This document shows, piece after piece, positions 17,990 to 48,045 of a stretch of 64,000 bases of DNA. Source of the DNA: Brasilonema angustatum HA4187-MV1 (lineage in GTDB: Bacteria; Cyanobacteriota; Cyanobacteriia; Cyanobacteriales; Nostocaceae). Position 1 is the stretch's first letter; every line of letters starts with the position of its first letter. A program made the translations under genes and the position numbers. The notes beneath the pieces are model-generated. The model was not told the DNA's origin. It made no database searches and saw nothing but the letters and a program-made list of their open reading frames with translations. The DNA is taken from positions 162,031 through 226,030 of the forward strand of contig JAHHGV010000004.1 of the NCBI GenBank assembly GCA_019359695.1, written 5' to 3'.

Positions 17990-18100
17990 CCCCCCCACGG
18001 ATAGCGATAAGCCGGAGGCTTTAGCTTGTGCGTATCGCGCAAAGTAAGAGACGCCTGTGGCGTATCGCCACCCGCGACGAATGAAAGAAACACTCTTTCC
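17990..18100. repeat. Dispersed palindromic repeat, copy 2
   Basis: GCGATAAGCCGGAGGCTTTA and GTGCGTATCGCGCA match copies at 140-186 and 47999-48041. A second palindrome, GGCGTATCGCC, follows at about 18059. Open frames across it are not credible genes. Confidence 0.65.
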
Positions 18101-39354: not shown

Positions 39355-41394
39355 GTGAAAATTCTGCTGGTAGAGGACGATCTCCCAACGGCAGCAGTAC
39401 TGTGTGAGGTTCTCACGGCTCAGTACTATACGGTTGAACTGGCAACGGATGGTCAAGATGGGTTGGCATTAGCAACATCATCGAACTTTGACTTGATCTT
39501 GTTGGATCTGCTGATTCCCAAACTCGATGGTATTAGTCTTTGCCGTCAACTTCGCATTCAGGGAGTTCAAAAGCCGATTCTCTTACTCACTGCTAAAGAT
39601 CAGAGTGCCGACGTAGTCAAGGGATTAGATGCAGGCGCAGACGATTATCTCACTAAACCCTACAAGTTGTCTGAGTTGCTGGCACGGATGCGGGCGTTGC
39701 TGCGTAGAGGACAGACCGAGCTAGCGCCAACTGTACTGATGTGGGAGAATCTTTGCATCAACCCTGTGTCGGCAGAAGTGACTTACAAAGGGCAACTTAT
39801 ATCTCTAACCCCCAAAGAATATAGCCTGTTGGGGCTGTTCCTGCGTAATCCACAGCGTGTCTTTAGCCGCAGTGACATCATTGATCGCCTCTGGTCAATG
39901 GATGCCATACCTAGCGAAGGAACTGTGACTAATCTGATTAAAGACTTGCGGCACAAGCTAAAGGCTCAGGGAATGTCCGCCGAGGTACTAGAAACCGTCT
40001 ATGGCTTGGGCTATCGACTTAAGACTCCACCGAAAACTGAGGAAACAAAGGGTGTGTTGTTTGGTGAACAGGACGAACAGACACACAGACTTGCACAGAC
40101 AGGGAAAAGAAAACGTCAAACAAATCTTGCTTCAGTCAACAAAGTAATAGAACGTTACAAAGATACGTTTGCCCAACGGGTAACTTTGCTAGAGCAAGTA
40201 GAACAAGCTTTGCGCTTAGGGAAATTGCAGATCGAACTCCGGTACCATGCGAGCAACGAAGCACACAAGCTAGCAGGCACACTGGGATCGTTTGGCTACG
40301 AGATGGGATCAAAGTTAGCGCGGGCGATTGAACATTTCCTTATGGGCGACAAGCCTTTAGCGCCAACGCAAGCCCCTCAACTCTCAAGACTCTTGAGTGA
40401 ACTCAAAGGGACGCTTAGTAAACCTCCTACACCACCAACTATCGAACAGTTTGAGCCAACTCAGATTCCTCTGGTGCTCGTTATCGATGATGAATCTTTG
40501 AGCAATCAACTGAAAACCGAAGCTATGAGTTGGGGAGTGCGGATTGAAGTTGCTAGCAATTGGGCGATCGCTCTGGCAGTGATTTCTCAATCTCCCCAAG
40601 CTGTTTTGCTTAATCTCAATGGACAAGATCCGATAGAAAAGGGCTTAACCTTGCTGCAAAAACTCAAGGAACAGCTTCCCACGACACCAATTTTGGTGAT
40701 AGGTGAGCAAGACAATCTGACACACAGAGTTGCTGTTTCTCGTTTGGGGGTACAACGATTTTTACACAAGCCAGTGAGCACAGCTGAAATATTTGAAGCG
40801 ATACGCGTTTGCGATAGACGAAGTCGTGCCGTTAGCGTAGCGTGTCCGCAGGACATAGGCATAGCGCCCCCTATGCCTAACGGCACGCTTGGGCTATCGG
40901 GGCTAGCGTCAAGCCTGAGCGCAAAGCGCACGCTGCGCGAACGGCTTATCGCTCAAGTTCTGCCCAAATCTCAAGCTTCCGAAGCCAAAGTGATGATTTT
41001 AGATGACGATCCAATAGCACTGGAGCTATTAAGCAATCTGCTGCAACCTTGGGGGCTGAGGGTGAAGACTTTGCAAGATCCCCAACAGTTTTGGGAGGTA
41101 TTAACTACCACAACGCCTGACTTACTCGTAATCGATTTGGAAATGCCAACATACAGTGGTGTTGATTTGTGCCGCGTAGTGCGACAAGATCCTAAGTGGG
41201 GAAATTTGCCGATTTTGGTGGTTACTGCTCATACAGACTTAGAATCGATTCAGCAGGTATTTGCGGCGGGAGCCGATGATTTTATCGGTAAGCCCGTAGT
41301 GGGACCAGAATTAGTCACCCGTGTTATCAGTCGCATTGATCGCTCCCGCTTACAGCAAGAACTAAAAATCTTAAAGCGGAGAATTGGAACTTAA
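39355..41394 (+). CDS. Multidomain response regulator (REC-wHTH-Hpt-REC-REC)
   Basis: Starts at GTG with AGAGG upstream. Order: an OmpR-type receiver (1-115; LLVEDD, phosphoacceptor in LILLDLLIP, KPY Lys), a winged-helix DNA-binding domain (about 128-222; TPKEYSLLGLFLRN and TVYGLGYRLK), an Hpt domain (about 255-350; NEAHKLAGTLGSFG), a middle receiver (about 370-480) whose phosphoacceptor position reads VLLNLNG (Asn for Asp), and a C-terminal receiver (about 545-660; VMILDDD, LLVIDLEMP) that looks intact. Residues about 483-532 derive from a palindromic repeat read in frame. The following gene encodes a hybrid kinase, so both belong to one phosphorelay, as an inference. Confidence 0.88.
   Translation: MKILLVEDDLPTAAVLCEVLTAQYYTVELATDGQDGLALATSSNFDLILLDLLIPKLDGISLCRQLRIQGVQKPILLLTAKDQSADVVKGLDAGADDYLTKPYKLSELLARMRALLRRGQTELAPTVLMWENLCINPVSAEVTYKGQLISLTPKEYSLLGLFLRNPQRVFSRSDIIDRLWSMDAIPSEGTVTNLIKDLRHKLKAQGMSAEVLETVYGLGYRLKTPPKTEETKGVLFGEQDEQTHRLAQTGKRKRQTNLASVNKVIERYKDTFAQRVTLLEQVEQALRLGKLQIELRYHASNEAHKLAGTLGSFGYEMGSKLARAIEHFLMGDKPLAPTQAPQLSRLLSELKGTLSKPPTPPTIEQFEPTQIPLVLVIDDESLSNQLKTEAMSWGVRIEVASNWAIALAVISQSPQAVLLNLNGQDPIEKGLTLLQKLKEQLPTTPILVIGEQDNLTHRVAVSRLGVQRFLHKPVSTAEIFEAIRVCDRRSRAVSVACPQDIGIAPPMPNGTLGLSGLASSLSAKRTLRERLIAQVLPKSQASEAKVMILDDDPIALELLSNLLQPWGLRVKTLQDPQQFWEVLTTTTPDLLVIDLEMPTYSGVDLCRVVRQDPKWGNLPILVVTAHTDLESIQQVFAAGADDFIGKPVVGPELVTRVISRIDRSRLQQELKILKRRIGT
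40801..40950. repeat. Palindromic repeat cluster read in frame between two receivers
   Basis: CGTGCCGTTAG (40825-40835) pairs with CTAACGGCACG (40877-40887), and inside it AGGCATAG pairs with CTATGCCT. Further on, GCGCACGCTGCGCGAACGG matches other family members. The reading frame stays open, adding about 45 linker residues. Confidence 0.75.
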
Positions 41395-41449: not shown

Positions 41450-44400
41450 TTGATGATTACCATCCGAGGCTACCAACTGCTTACCCAAATCTACGAAAGT
41501 GTTAATTCTTTGGTGTATCGAGGTATCCGAGAGTCAGGTAATCAACCTGTTATTCTCAAAGTTCTCAAAGATGACTATCCCACACCATCTGAGTTAACTC
41601 GATATAAGCAGGAATATGAAATGACTCGGAATCTCAATTTAGATGGAGTGGTTAAGGCTTATGGCTTAGAACCGATAGAAAGAACTCTAGTCATCATCTT
41701 TGAGGATTTTGGTGCAACATCCTTAACTCTATTAAAGGAGGTAGGAGGGAGTTTTTGCCTTTCCGCAATTTTTTCTTTACTAGAATTTCTCAAGCTTGCC
41801 ATCAAGATAGCTGAGATTTTGGGTACGATTCATACTGCCAATGTTATCCACAAAGATCTCAACCCCTCGAATATCGTCCTCAACCCGGTAACTGGACAAC
41901 TCAAAATCATTGACTTTGGTATTTCCACTCTCATTACCCGCTCTAATCCGACTCTTAAAAATCCCAATGTTTTAGAAGGCACTCTAGCATACATATCGCC
42001 CGAGCAGACGGGACGAATGAACCGAAGTCTTGATTACCGTACAGATTTTTACTCTCTCGGTGTTACCTTTTACGAACTGCTGACAGGAAAACTACCGTTT
42101 GAAAAGAATGATGCTCTAGAGTTAGTACATTGTCATATCGCTCAACACCCCATTCCACCCCATCAGCTTGTAGAGGGTAAAAGCGGTACAGCCATTCCCA
42201 AGACAGTTTCAGATATTGTGATGAAATTGATGGGGAAAACAGCAGAAGAACGATACCAAAGTGCTTGGGGACTAAAAGCTGATTTAGAAAAATGCCTTCA
42301 GCAGTTACAGACAACTGGCAAAATTGAACCGTTTTCTCTCGGTTCGACTGATATTTCTGACAAGTTTCAAATACCCCAAAAAGTTTATGGACGTGACGCG
42401 GAAGTTGAAACTTTACTGGTGGCGTTTGAGCGAGTCGCAGGGGGAGGAGAAAAAGAAAACCTGCAATCACCAGTCATCAATCACCAGTCACCAATTCAAG
42501 GGTTAAAATCCAAAATTGAGATGATGTTGGTGACGGGTTATTCTGGTGTTGGAAAATCAGCTTTAGTACAGGAGATTTATAAACCCATTACTGAAAAACG
42601 CGGTTATTTCCTAACTGGTAAATTTGACCAGTTTAAGCGAAATATCCCTTACTCAGCCATTGTAAGCGCGTTCGCCGGATTAATACAGCAACTGTTAACT
42701 GAAACTGAAGTGCAGCTTGAGCAATGGCGAGAAAAACTTCGACTTGCTTTGGGTTCTAATGGTCAAGTCATTATTGATGTCCTTCCGGAAGTGGAACTGA
42801 TTGTTGGTAAACAGCCATCTGTGTTAGAGTTAGGCGCTGCTGAGTCGCAAAATCGCTTTAATCTGGTTTTTCAAAACTTTATCCAGACATTTTGTCTAAA
42901 AGAGCATCCTTTAGTGATCTTTTTGGATGATTTGCAGTGGGCTGACTCCGCCAGCCTCAAGTTGATAGATCTGATGATGACAGATGCAGATACACAATAT
43001 CTGTTTCTGATTGGAGCGTATCGAGATAATGAAGTCAACTGCACTCATCCATTGATGATGACTCTTGATAGGTTGCGTAATATTGGAGCGACTGTCAATT
43101 TTATTACCTTAGCTCCTTTACAAAGTGAGTCTATCAGTCAATTAATTGCTGATACATTGCACGCAGACATGCCATCAGTCAGCCAGTTGGCATCCCTTAT
43201 AGTGCGTAAAACTGACGGCAATCCTTTCTTCGTTAATCAATTTTTGAAAACACTGCACGCGGACAATCTCCTTACCTTTGATTTTGAACGCAATGCTTGG
43301 CAATGGAACTTAGCTCAAATTCAGGCAACGAATATCACTGACAATGTGGTGGAGTTGATGATTGGTGAGTTAAAGAAATTGCCGGAATCCACACAGCACA
43401 TTTTGCGTTTAGCAGCTTGTGTTGGTGCTGAATTTGACTTAAAAACCCTTTCTATTATTTGTGAAAAATCTCAGGGCGAAATTTTTTCTGACTTAATGAC
43501 AGCAGTTCAATCCGGATTAATCTTATGTATATCTGAGTTAGATACGAACCTATTCATTCAAAATTATAAATTTTTACATGACCGAGTACAACAAGCAGCT
43601 TATGCTTTGATAGATGATAAGCAAAAAAAAAATATTCACCTAGAAATCGGTCGCCTATTGTTACAGAATATCTCAGTCGATGCTTTATTCGATGGGTTAT
43701 TTGACATTGTTGATCATTTTAATCTTGGGGTTGAATTAGTCACCTATCAACAGGAGCGAAATGAAATCGCCAAACTCAATTTGATGGCGGGTCAGAAAGC
43801 CAAAGTAGGAACAGCTTATGGGGCAGCAGTCGAGTATTTGAATGTCGGGCTAAAACTCTTGAGTGCAGATAGTTGGCACAAAGAGTATGACCTAACCTTA
43901 GCTTTGTACGAAGAAGCAGCAGAGGCGGCGTACCTCAACGGAGACTTTATCACGATGGAGCCATTGGCTCTAGTTGTGTTAAACAATGCCAAAACAGTGC
44001 TGGACAAAGTAAAAGTTTATGATGACAAAATCCAAGCATATGTGTCACAGGGCAACCTCAAAGAAGCCATTAATATTGGACTGCAAGTGCTAAATTTGTT
44101 AGGAGTGATATTACCAGAAGAACCGAGCCAGTTAGATATTCAAAAAGGATTGGAGGAAACAGCTTCACTTTTGAATGGGCAGGAAATTGAAGACTTAATT
44201 AGCTTGCCAAAGATGACCGAACCTGAAAAGCTAGCAGCGATGCTTGTCCTATCAAGTATAGCATCAGCTTCATTTATAACGAGTCCCAATCTTTTTTTAC
44301 TGATCGCATTATCAAAAATTAATCTATCTATTACATATGGCAATATAGAATTATCAGCATTTGCTTATGGTCAATACACAGTAGTTCTGTGTGGAATACT

Positions 44401-47400
44401 CCAAGACTATGAGTCAGCTTATAAATTTGGCAAACTTTCTTTAGTTTTGGGAGAACAGTTAAATGCTCAGAAAGAAAAAGCTAAAATCTGTCTGGGATTT
44501 GGTGCTCACTCAATGCACTGGAAGGAGCATGTCAAGGAAACAATATCAGTTTTGATTGAGGGCTATCAAGGCGGAGTTGAAATTGGGGACTTTGAATATG
44601 CTGGCTATTGCGCCTGTTATGTGTGCGAACATTTATATTTTCTCGGTCACGAACTTACACAGTTAGAACAAGAGATAGCCATTTATAGTAAAGCGATCGC
44701 TCGAATCAAACAAGAAGCATCTTTTCATTGGACAGCCATCTTTCGACAAGCAGTTCTCAATTTGTTGGGTAAAGCTGAAAATCCCATCCGCTTATTTGGT
44801 AATGCCTATAACGAAGAGCAAAGCCTACCACTTGCTATCAAAGTCAATAACAGAATAGAACTTTTATTTTTTTACTTAAATAAACTTATATTGTGTTATT
44901 TATTTGGTGACACTCAACAAGCCGTCCAAAATGGAGTACTCGCTAAACAGTATCTAGAAGGATTCGCTACAATGCTAGTTACTGGTTTACTGCATTTCTA
45001 TGATTCTTTGGCACATTTGAGTGCATTTGTCGAGGCTTCAAGCTCCGAAAAAGAAACTTATCTCAATCGAGTGAATATAAACCAAGAGAAGATGCAGAAA
45101 TGGGCATATCATGCTCCGATGAATTATCTGCATAAATTTTATTTAGTCGAGGCAGAGAAAGCACGAGTTTTAGGTCAATATTTTGAAGCCGAGGAGTTTT
45201 ACGAACAAGCGATTCAAGGAGCAAGAGAAAATGAATATGTCCAGGAAGAAGCCTTAGCTTATGAATTAGCTGCTAAGTTTTATTTAGGGCGTGGTAGATT
45301 GAAGTTTGCCCAAACTTATATGCAAGAAGCTCATTACACCTACACACGCTGGGGAGCAACAGCAAAGGTCAAAGATTTAGAAAAACACTACCCCCAATTT
45401 TTTCCCAAAACAAGTTCCCACGGCATTAAGCCTTACACCTCTAATGCAATTTTCAGCACCGATTCAAAAACATCTAGTGAACTCGATTTAAGCAGCGTTC
45501 TCAAAGCCTCACAAGCCCTGTCAAGTGAAATTGTGCTAACTACCCTGTTAGAAAAAATGATGAAAATTGTCCTGGAAAATGCAGGGGCACAGAAAGGTTA
45601 CCTTATTTTACAATCGCAGATTGAACCAGGGAACAAGAATGGGCAATGGGTAATTGAGGCATCAGGAACAGTTGATAATAATGAATTCAAGATTTTACCA
45701 TCCATCCCGCTTGAAACTGTTGGTGGCAGCAGTCATACCCCAATGGTGTGTGATGCGATCGTCAATTACGTTATCCGTACCCAAGAAAGTATTGTTTTGA
45801 ATGATGCTTTTCGTGAAGGCAATTTCATTCGTACTTCTTACATTGTTAAACAGCAACCGAAATCAATTTTGTGTGCGCCTCTGCTCAATCAAGGCAAACT
45901 GGTAGGTATTTTGTACCTGGAAAATAATCTGACAACTGAGGCTTTTACGCCAGACAGATTGGAAGTCTTGAAACTGTTATCTTCGCAGGCAGCAATTTCG
46001 ATAGAAAATGCCAAGCTTTATGCTCAAGTGCGTGAAAATGAGAGGAGGCTGTCTCAATTTTTAGAGGCAATACCCATAGGTATCGGAGTGCTGGATGCTC
46101 AAGGTAGATCGTGCTATGCTAACCGAACGGCTGTGGAGTTAATGGGTAAAGGAGTTGTGCCGTCAGCTACAGCCGAACAATTGGGAGAAGTTTATCAACT
46201 TTATGTTGCGCAAACTTCTAAGCAATACCCGAGTGATCAACTACCAATCATGCGGGCGTTGAGCGGTAATCAGGCGATCGCGGATGATATAGAAATTCAC
46301 CAAAAAGATAGGATTATTCCCGTGGAAAGTCGAGGAACACCCGTCTTTGATGAAAAGGGTAATATTGCGTATGCGATTACCACGTTTCAAGATATCACAG
46401 AACGCAAACAAGCTCAGCAGATTTTAACTGACTACAATCGTACTTTAGAAAAGCAAGTTGCTCAAAGGACAGCCGCTTTACAAGAGAGTGAAGAGCGGTT
46501 TCGCCATGCGTTTCATGATGCTCCCATTGGTATGGCGCTGCTGGGATTGAATCATCGCTGGCTGCAAATTAATCCGATGCTAGGTGAAATGCTTGGCTGC
46601 TCTGAATCAGAGTTACTAAGCGTGAACGCTTTTGAGTTCATTCACCCGGAAGATGTTCATCAACTTCAGGATTGCATCAAGCAAGTTTTGAGCAATGAAA
46701 ACCGCAATGCTCAAGTAGAGTTGCGCTACTTGTGCCAGGGAGGACGGATCGCTTGGGGATTAACGAGCCTGTCATTGGTACGAGATTCTTACTACAAGTC
46801 TTTATATTACGTCACACAGATCCAAGATATCAGCGAACAGCGGGCTATTGAGCAGATGAAAAATGAATTCATTTCCGTCGTTAGCCATGAACTTCGCACC
46901 CCGCTCACCGCAATCCGAGGATTTTTAGGGCTGCTCAATACTGGTATGTACGACAACAAACCCGAAAAAGCCAAACGGATGCTCCAGCAAGCTTTGACAA
47001 ACAGCGATCGCCTTGTGCGTCTGGTTAATGACATCCTTGATTTAGAACGCTTATCTTCGGGGCGAGTACAGCTTACAAAGGAAGTTTGTCAAGCAGAAGA
47101 TTTAATGCAACGATCCGTCGAAGGGGTACAGTCAATCGCTCTTGGAGCTGCGATTACACTCTTGATTACTCCCACCAACGCTTGCGTATGGGCTTCGCCC
47201 GACTCAATCATCCAAATGCTGACCAATTTGTTGAGCAATGCCATCAAGTTCTCTGCCCCTAACTCGGTTATTACCCTGTCTGCCCAACCTCAGTTCAACT
47301 CAGTTCTGTTTGAAGTCAAAGACCAAGGCAGAGGCATTCCCGCCGACAAGCTAGAAACGATTTTTGAACGCTTCCAACAGGTTGACGTTTCCGATTCTCG

Positions 47401-47548
47401 TGCTAAAGGAGGAACTGGCTTAGGCTTAGCGATTTGCCAAAGTATTGTCCAACAACATAAGGGGAGTATTTGGGCACAGAGCAAACTGGGTGAAGGCAGC
47501 ACTTTTTATTTTACATTGCCAATACCATCAAGAGAAAATCATGACTAA
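41450..47548 (+). CDS. Trifunctional Ser/Thr kinase / AAA ATPase / sensor histidine kinase
   Basis: 2032 residues. A Hanks kinase occupies about 5-275 (HKDLNPSNIVL, IIDFGIS). A linker carrying the repeated text ATCACCAGTC precedes a large STAND-like ATPase (Walker A VTGYSGVGKSALVQ near 361; Walker B LVIFLDDLQWAD near 487). A TPR-like helical region spans about 760-1310. Then come GAF (about 1340-1515), two PAS domains (about 1525-1640 and 1680-1795), HisKA with H1813 in SVVSHELRTPLTA, and a HATPase with NLLSNAIKF, DQGRGIP and GGTGLGLAI. Proteins of this architecture are frequent in filamentous cyanobacteria, some acting in heterocyst or stress signalling; the input is unknown. It overlaps the next regulator gene by 8 bases. 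Confidence 0.93.
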   Translation: MMITIRGYQLLTQIYESVNSLVYRGIRESGNQPVILKVLKDDYPTPSELTRYKQEYEMTRNLNLDGVVKAYGLEPIERTLVIIFEDFGATSLTLLKEVGGSFCLSAIFSLLEFLKLAIKIAEILGTIHTANVIHKDLNPSNIVLNPVTGQLKIIDFGISTLITRSNPTLKNPNVLEGTLAYISPEQTGRMNRSLDYRTDFYSLGVTFYELLTGKLPFEKNDALELVHCHIAQHPIPPHQLVEGKSGTAIPKTVSDIVMKLMGKTAEERYQSAWGLKADLEKCLQQLQTTGKIEPFSLGSTDISDKFQIPQKVYGRDAEVETLLVAFERVAGGGEKENLQSPVINHQSPIQGLKSKIEMMLVTGYSGVGKSALVQEIYKPITEKRGYFLTGKFDQFKRNIPYSAIVSAFAGLIQQLLTETEVQLEQWREKLRLALGSNGQVIIDVLPEVELIVGKQPSVLELGAAESQNRFNLVFQNFIQTFCLKEHPLVIFLDDLQWADSASLKLIDLMMTDADTQYLFLIGAYRDNEVNCTHPLMMTLDRLRNIGATVNFITLAPLQSESISQLIADTLHADMPSVSQLASLIVRKTDGNPFFVNQFLKTLHADNLLTFDFERNAWQWNLAQIQATNITDNVVELMIGELKKLPESTQHILRLAACVGAEFDLKTLSIICEKSQGEIFSDLMTAVQSGLILCISELDTNLFIQNYKFLHDRVQQAAYALIDDKQKKNIHLEIGRLLLQNISVDALFDGLFDIVDHFNLGVELVTYQQERNEIAKLNLMAGQKAKVGTAYGAAVEYLNVGLKLLSADSWHKEYDLTLALYEEAAEAAYLNGDFITMEPLALVVLNNAKTVLDKVKVYDDKIQAYVSQGNLKEAINIGLQVLNLLGVILPEEPSQLDIQKGLEETASLLNGQEIEDLISLPKMTEPEKLAAMLVLSSIASASFITSPNLFLLIALSKINLSITYGNIELSAFAYGQYTVVLCGILQDYESAYKFGKLSLVLGEQLNAQKEKAKICLGFGAHSMHWKEHVKETISVLIEGYQGGVEIGDFEYAGYCACYVCEHLYFLGHELTQLEQEIAIYSKAIARIKQEASFHWTAIFRQAVLNLLGKAENPIRLFGNAYNEEQSLPLAIKVNNRIELLFFYLNKLILCYLFGDTQQAVQNGVLAKQYLEGFATMLVTGLLHFYDSLAHLSAFVEASSSEKETYLNRVNINQEKMQKWAYHAPMNYLHKFYLVEAEKARVLGQYFEAEEFYEQAIQGARENEYVQEEALAYELAAKFYLGRGRLKFAQTYMQEAHYTYTRWGATAKVKDLEKHYPQFFPKTSSHGIKPYTSNAIFSTDSKTSSELDLSSVLKASQALSSEIVLTTLLEKMMKIVLENAGAQKGYLILQSQIEPGNKNGQWVIEASGTVDNNEFKILPSIPLETVGGSSHTPMVCDAIVNYVIRTQESIVLNDAFREGNFIRTSYIVKQQPKSILCAPLLNQGKLVGILYLENNLTTEAFTPDRLEVLKLLSSQAAISIENAKLYAQVRENERRLSQFLEAIPIGIGVLDAQGRSCYANRTAVELMGKGVVPSATAEQLGEVYQLYVAQTSKQYPSDQLPIMRALSGNQAIADDIEIHQKDRIIPVESRGTPVFDEKGNIAYAITTFQDITERKQAQQILTDYNRTLEKQVAQRTAALQESEERFRHAFHDAPIGMALLGLNHRWLQINPMLGEMLGCSESELLSVNAFEFIHPEDVHQLQDCIKQVLSNENRNAQVELRYLCQGGRIAWGLTSLSLVRDSYYKSLYYVTQIQDISEQRAIEQMKNEFISVVSHELRTPLTAIRGFLGLLNTGMYDNKPEKAKRMLQQALTNSDRLVRLVNDILDLERLSSGRVQLTKEVCQAEDLMQRSVEGVQSIALGAAITLLITPTNACVWASPDSIIQMLTNLLSNAIKFSAPNSVITLSAQPQFNSVLFEVKDQGRGIPADKLETIFERFQQVDVSDSRAKGGTGLGLAICQSIVQQHKGSIWAQSKLGEGSTFYFTLPIPSRENHD

Positions 47549-47918: not shown

Positions 47919-47997
47919 ATCTTGGCGTTAAATTTTATAGCAGGGAACGCTTAACGCTTAACAGGGAACTACTAAGACGAAGCTAATTCACAAGTTA

Positions 47998-48045
47998 ATA
48001 AGCGCGATACGCGCAGCGTCAAGCCTCTGGCTTATCGCCCTCTTG
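47998..48045. repeat. Dispersed palindromic repeat, copy 3 (inverted)
   Basis: AGCGCGATACGCGCAGCGTC and AAGCCTCTGGCTTATCGCC are the reverse complement of the copy at 140-186 apart from one base. It lies in the gap 47919-48453, which has no gene. Confidence 0.7.

Follow-up and report, generated by a model that had tools for sequence, protein, structure and literature searches.

How does a palindromic repeat come to be read as protein inside a bacterial signalling gene? This question is raised by a locus within a 64,000-nucleotide stretch of the Brasilonema angustatum HA4187-MV1 genome (the stretch is hereafter the window, and its genome G000), where an earlier note, made from the letters alone, had described a nested inverted repeat that adds about 45 residues to a response regulator, without a stop or frameshift and just after a degenerate receiver. 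The gene in question is:

39355-41394, + strand: response-regulator gene, 679 aa, with domains REC, winged helix (Trans_reg_C), Hpt, degenerate REC and REC

The gene is indeed a single stop-free frame over its entire length, as had been claimed, and a domain search returned three receiver matches along with Trans_reg_C and Hpt. Receivers usually carry an aspartate as phospho-acceptor. In the aligned sequence the receiver preceding the insert carries asparagine at this position, in keeping with its description as degenerate.

We aligned the gene with its orthologues from Brasilonema sp. CT11 (G005) and from a genome that is probably B. octagenarum UFV-E1 (G002), an alignment that the earlier note had itself put forward as the test of insertion. 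CT11 showed a gap of exactly 49 codons at an intact HIP1 octamer. The in-frame addition was therefore borne out and its size corrected, the unit being 147 nt at 40801-40947; the palindrome is likewise real, but its arms make up an inner part of a larger element that is ended by the two halves of HIP1. The parts are, in order:

40798-40800, + strand: left part (GCG) of a split HIP1 target, GCGATCGC, which is intact in CT11
40801-40947, + strand: 147-nt stop-free in-frame insert, codons 483-531, absent from CT11 and from 31 of 31 rows outside the genus
40803-40806, + strand: 5' arm (ACGC) of hairpin 1 of the primary 27-nt element, read from sequence
40807-40905, + strand: loop 1, 99 nt instead of 3 (+96 nt), a nested composite repeat
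40825-40887, + strand: nested palindrome inside loop 1, with outer arms 40825-40835/40877-40887 and inner arms 40856-40864/40871-40879
40906-40909, + strand: 3' arm (GCGT) of hairpin 1
40911-40915, + strand: 5' arm (AAGCC) of hairpin 2
40916-40942, + strand: loop 2, 27 nt instead of 3 (+24 nt), a second nested repeat
40943-40947, + strand: 3' arm (GGCTT) of hairpin 2
40948-40952, + strand: right part (ATCGC) of the split HIP1 target, intact in CT11

An exhaustive search recovered the inverted pair, which a repeat search with a minimum length of 12 had not listed: CGTGCCGTTAG, the left outer arm, pairs perfectly with the right one over 11 bp, and the inner arms form a further pair of 9 bp. When 40801-40950 was folded, 2 of 200 shuffles were equal or better with RNA parameters (z = -2.91) and 1 of 200 with DNA parameters (z = -3.14), and the loop-2 repeat folded alone was no better than its shuffles (z = -0.30). 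Of the six possible frames, two stay open across the 147 nt, and one of these two is the frame of the gene. The GC content of the insert is 61%, compared to 48% for the gene overall. Parts of 40801-40950 have at least 41 matches in their own genome (E<=0.001), one of which is the window itself, and this count is a lower bound based on scoring 40 of 207 first-look candidates.

The three-way alignment revealed an empty allele in CT11 (GAGGCG-ATCGCC, with intact HIP1), an allele with 27 additional nucleotides in G002 and the 147-nt allele in G000, where the 27-nt element of G002 provides nine extra codons in the same HIP1 site that is occupied in G000. All three alleles are free of stops, and collinearity with the compared stretches of CT11 and G002 extends over only about 10 kb on either side of and including the gene. 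Outside Brasilonema, the 49 residues were lacking in all of the aligned rows, these being the 31 best loci returned out of 140 genomes with a match, among which two pairs look like one sequence from two sources and rows at 51-54% identity are possible paralogues; none of the aligned rows had the residues without the palindrome. The insertion site was an exact HIP1 octamer in 11 of the 30 outgroup rows that could be read (L061, a mislocated row, was left out). The presence of exact HIP1 in these empty alleles suggests that HIP1 is probably the target of insertion. The in-frame insert, its empty HIP1 allele, the 27-nt stage and the nesting within both loops are thus observed directly.

The primary unit can be written as a 35-mer, GCGATACGC-NNN-GCGTCAAGCC-NNN-GGCTTATCGC, which is HIP1 with 27 nt inside. 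When folded with DNA parameters, the 27-nt forms fold into a pair of triloop hairpins that the HIP1 halves close off, and RNA parameters gave other folds instead of this two-hairpin form. The strict 35-mer was present in 23 of 192 genomes of the family, representing 12 of 56 genera; each of the seven Brasilonema genomes holds 15-40 copies, and the remaining 16 genomes hold 1-10. It was found in 0 viral contigs, and a similarity search returned three plasmid records, all of them from Brasilonema or Scytonema. A looser pattern (GCGATACGC, 8-38 nt, GCTTATCGC) yielded 50, 46, 40, 51, 31, 55 and 40 copies in G000 to G006, respectively, and a reversed-pattern control yielded none in all seven Brasilonema genomes. 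The element measured 27 nt in 75 of 89 copies examined from G000 and G002, and 28-29 nt in the other 14, a length that would shift a reading frame. Among 48 strict copies from these two genomes, the triloops include complementary pairs, GAA/TTC and AAA/TTT in loop 1 and TCC/GGA and TCT/AGA in loop 2, as if loop sequences were sometimes inverted.

Relatives of the insert also occur elsewhere in the window, the first and last of those below having been found in a search that allowed up to three mismatches:

146-180, - strand: parent 35-mer, uninterrupted
18004-18038: parent-element variant (G000:C60:180034)
48004-48038, + strand: parent 35-mer, uninterrupted, between listed ORFs, where CT11 and G002 have plain GCGATCGC

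The earlier note had placed the repeat in a family found between genes elsewhere in the window; the parent element recurs there as listed, and the reported arms recur only as fragments of up to 19 nt. The insertion reading itself is supported, and it had missed the layering, the 27-nt primary unit within HIP1 and the in-frame copies in other genes.

In the window's response regulator the arms of both hairpins are intact and both loops are enlarged. The loop-1 material resembles composite repeats that are dispersed through the genome, and loop 1 appears by eye to be likewise enlarged, by related sequence, in two other G000 copies (L078 and L082). Loop 2 holds an extra repeat at five places across the genus, the response-regulator copy included (search bounds 10-40 nt), with additions of +24, +24, +23, +23 and +25 nt; because three of the five are +23 or +25, being in frame is not inherent in the nested repeat. 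Both loops were enlarged together at one place in seven genomes, in G006, within search bounds that leave out the response-regulator copy with its 99-nt loop 1. Enlarged loops in several copies therefore indicate that the hairpin loops took further repeats more than once, and the response-regulator copy is among those in which the additions preserve the frame.

Most of the examined copies lie outside ORFs. In G000, 14 of 50 copies are in ORFs of at least 100 aa and 8 of 50 in ORFs of at least 200 aa; the corresponding counts for G002 are 10 and 7 of 39, the 40th copy being that of the response regulator, which was left out. Since gene calls were made as the longest ORF, some copies near 5' ends may precede the actual start. 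ORFs of at least 200 aa contain 15 of the 75 copies with 27 nt and 0 of the 14 with 28-29 nt, a difference that is not significant (Fisher p 0.11), and two of the longer copies are in short, doubtful ORFs (108 and 141 aa). HIP1 octamers, in contrast, were within ORFs in 114 of 126 cases on C60, the contig that carries the window, and in 80 of 105 cases in the flanks of examined copies, so that the element (14/50 and 24/89) is rarer there than HIP1 in both comparisons (p <1e-11), and genic copies have therefore probably been weeded out.

Eight G000 host genes are backed by Pfam, encoding HemD, PurK, a DUF4388 protein, two histidine kinases, an acyl-CoA dehydrogenase, a ShlB-type protein and an alpha/beta hydrolase. 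Within the ShlB-type gene the element lies towards the N-terminal end, within PurK and the hydrolase towards the C-terminal end, and across the host genes the 27 nt are translated in four frame/orientation settings. Alleles were aligned across the genus for three of the eight, and each of these provided direct examples of the element in frame alongside alleles that lack it at the same codon, just as the genome-wide family is itself directly observed. For HemD, the element is present in G000, G005 and G002, an exact empty HIP1 is found in G004, G006 and G001, and G003 gave no match. For the DUF4388 gene it is present in G000, G005 and G001 and lacking in G002, G006, G003 and G004, the empty sites being near but not exact HIP1 (GCGATTGC in G002, ACGATCGC in G006 and GCGGACGC in G003 and G004). 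For PurK it is present in G000, G001, G006 and, in diverged form, G003, whose match holds one TGA; G005, G002 and G004 lack it, with exact HIP1 only in G004, beside other sequence.

Could the residues have a different origin altogether? Insert sequence that is in frame and stop-free might be expected of old protein sequence that was lost in relatives, with a palindrome arising by chance. However, CT11 and 31 of 31 outgroup rows lack the insert, the site is exact HIP1 in CT11 and in 11 of the 30 readable rows, and the insert is itself composed of dispersed repeats. We reject this scenario on the empty HIP1 alleles and regard it as scarcely credible. An assembly or sequencing error that happened to restore an open frame, raised by the earlier note as a possible refutation, is also rejected as unlikely, because at this site G002 also has the 27-nt stage in frame, and because the whole gene shows dN/dS values of 0.20-0.27. 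The same values bear on whether the insert, although real, is simply tolerated rather than used in a gene that is decaying. Both the degenerate state of the receiver just before the insert and a second large insert within this receiver in G002 could be taken as signs of decay, but all three Brasilonema alleles read are stop-free, and dN/dS falls to 0.11-0.18 in the last receiver, which is downstream of the insert. Decay is thus improbable, and it was rejected on the stop-free alleles and low dN/dS.

A more serious alternative concerns history: the 27-nt element may have entered this HIP1 site on separate occasions in G000 and in G002. A tree of three genes groups G000 with CT11, with G002 next (support 0.89), and single-gene trees disagree on the placement of G002. 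Because CT11, nearest to G000, lacks the response-regulator element that is common to G000 and G002, a single gain needs either precise loss or gene exchange, and the patchy distributions for DUF4388 and PurK are likewise favorable to repeated gain. On the other hand, in the bases just before the response-regulator site, G000 and G002 resemble each other more closely than either resembles CT11, which favors one shared, possibly recombined allele, and the conflicting single-gene trees fit exchange. Independent gain is therefore the less favored history, at perhaps a minority chance. Given patchy presence and conflicting trees, precise loss, allele exchange and repeated gain at HIP1 are each a possible explanation for the patchiness. 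Besides the response-regulator site, G000 and G002 share five copies with both flanks and one with a single flank, and the unshared sites may reflect missing DNA or diverged copies.

What does the insert do to the protein? An AlphaFold model of codons 360-679, built from six sequences, was of low confidence overall (mean pLDDT 62). Both receivers were formed, with block means mostly at 60-85, and pLDDT was below 50 over fragment residues 127-181, the insert corresponding to residues 124-172. Foldseek matches for this fragment were PleD and other receiver proteins, as expected. The 49-residue insert, at the end of the degenerate receiver, is probably a flexible segment, and we infer that the protein bearing it is made and still working.

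Other length differences were observed in this neighborhood. The G002 orthologue (L011) has a 234-bp in-frame insert (78 aa) at window position 40493, where it follows the first strand of its degenerate receiver. This insert ends in inverted repeats, CTGACTTTTCACG/CTTACTTTTCACG (12 of 13 matching), and is flanked by an imperfect repeat of some 9 bp, ATTGATGAT/ATCGATGAT; as read from its sequence, it appears MITE-like and separate from the HIP1 element. The adjoining kinase gene (41450-47548) has a 24-nt in-frame repeat in G002 at window position 42429, a linker whose length differs by 69 nt between G000 and CT11, and at position 46487 G002 has a 762-bp in-frame insertion (254 aa), which by eye may be extra PAS-type sequence. 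Just past a listed ORF, at position 47941, a CAGGGAA heptamer repeat has one more unit in CT11 and seven more in G002 than in G000.

Cyanobacteria reportedly possess small dispersed repeats (SDRs) in families of 21-27 nt, and one of them, SDR5, is said to have been described by Elhai et al. in 2008, work that PMC4390886 cites, as a very small repeat of this type with nested repeats and a characteristic predicted secondary structure. The element studied here resembles SDR5 in several respects. PMC4390886 puts the exact insertion point of SDR5 between nucleotides 3 and 4 of HIP1. The same GCG|ATCGC split is seen here, with exact empty alleles in the response regulator and HemD, although the element starts with AT, so that a cut after nucleotide 5 would fit just as well, and the empty sites in DUF4388 and PurK are for the most part inexact HIP1. 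Most copies fall within the SDR size range (27 nt in 75 of 89, with 28-29 nt in 14), and the comparison is one of insertion point and size as described rather than of nucleotide sequence. A possible difference from SDR5 is that several genes here carry copies in frame, and that sister species have empty and intermediate alleles. Our literature search on in-frame palindromes, HIP1, small dispersed repeats and MITEs returned no report of in-frame SDR5; it did not cover the 2008 SDR paper, so novelty is not claimed.

Rickettsia palindromic elements provide a second comparison. PMC10969869 describes these as about 150 bp long and in frame in unrelated protein genes, with a conserved encoded peptide, and calls a similar mechanism in other prokaryotes conceivable. 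Our element is also in frame in unrelated genes (response regulator, HemD, PurK and DUF4388), each with alleles lacking it, but the host is a cyanobacterium, the unit is 27 nt within HIP1, 147 nt is reached by nesting, and the 27 nt are used in four frame/orientation settings rather than for a conserved peptide. REPINs, which are linked to RAYT transposases, are likewise genome-dispersed doublets of short hairpins and, according to PMC3116915, occur in Nostoc punctiforme too; that paper suggests that its approach may help find the origins of SDR. The element here differs in sitting in HIP1. Finally, the 234-bp G002 insert, with its terminal inverted repeats and flanking repeat, is MITE-like, whereas any duplication at the HIP1 element is limited to AT, and HIP1 itself supplies its outer inverted ends. 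We judge the finding to be an SDR5-like repeat that occurs in genes, as the Rickettsia elements do, with intermediates preserved.

Taken together, it is highly probable that an SDR5-type repeat in a genic HIP1 site was kept at 27 nt and lengthened by two loop repeats to 49 residues. A very small mobile repeat of this type would have entered the HIP1 octamer (GCG|ATCGC) within the coding gene, and this first copy would have been retained because it is nine codons long and open in the gene's frame. In the window's lineage two more repeats would then have entered both three-base hairpin loops, and since +96 and +24 nt are both multiples of three, the nine-codon tag would have become a 49-residue segment. 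How the two loop events were ordered, and whether each took one step, is likewise a matter of inference. Single-strand transposition would be compatible with the paired hairpins and with the lack of a clear target duplication.

More tentatively, SDR5-like elements may be mobile and often reversible nine-codon tags for which HIP1 provides coding targets, with resident hairpin loops being preferred by further repeats and stop-free copies growing linkers by whole codons in signalling proteins, a generalization that we hold as possible rather than likely. The before, middle and after series of empty, 27-nt and 147-nt alleles captures mobile repeats in the act of lengthening an intact bacterial gene outside of Rickettsia. 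It opens to testing both the movement of repeats shorter than 30 nt and the question whether copies kept in frame are ballast that is tolerated or linkers that are of use, and it cautions that protein segments confined to one cyanobacterial lineage may be repeats.
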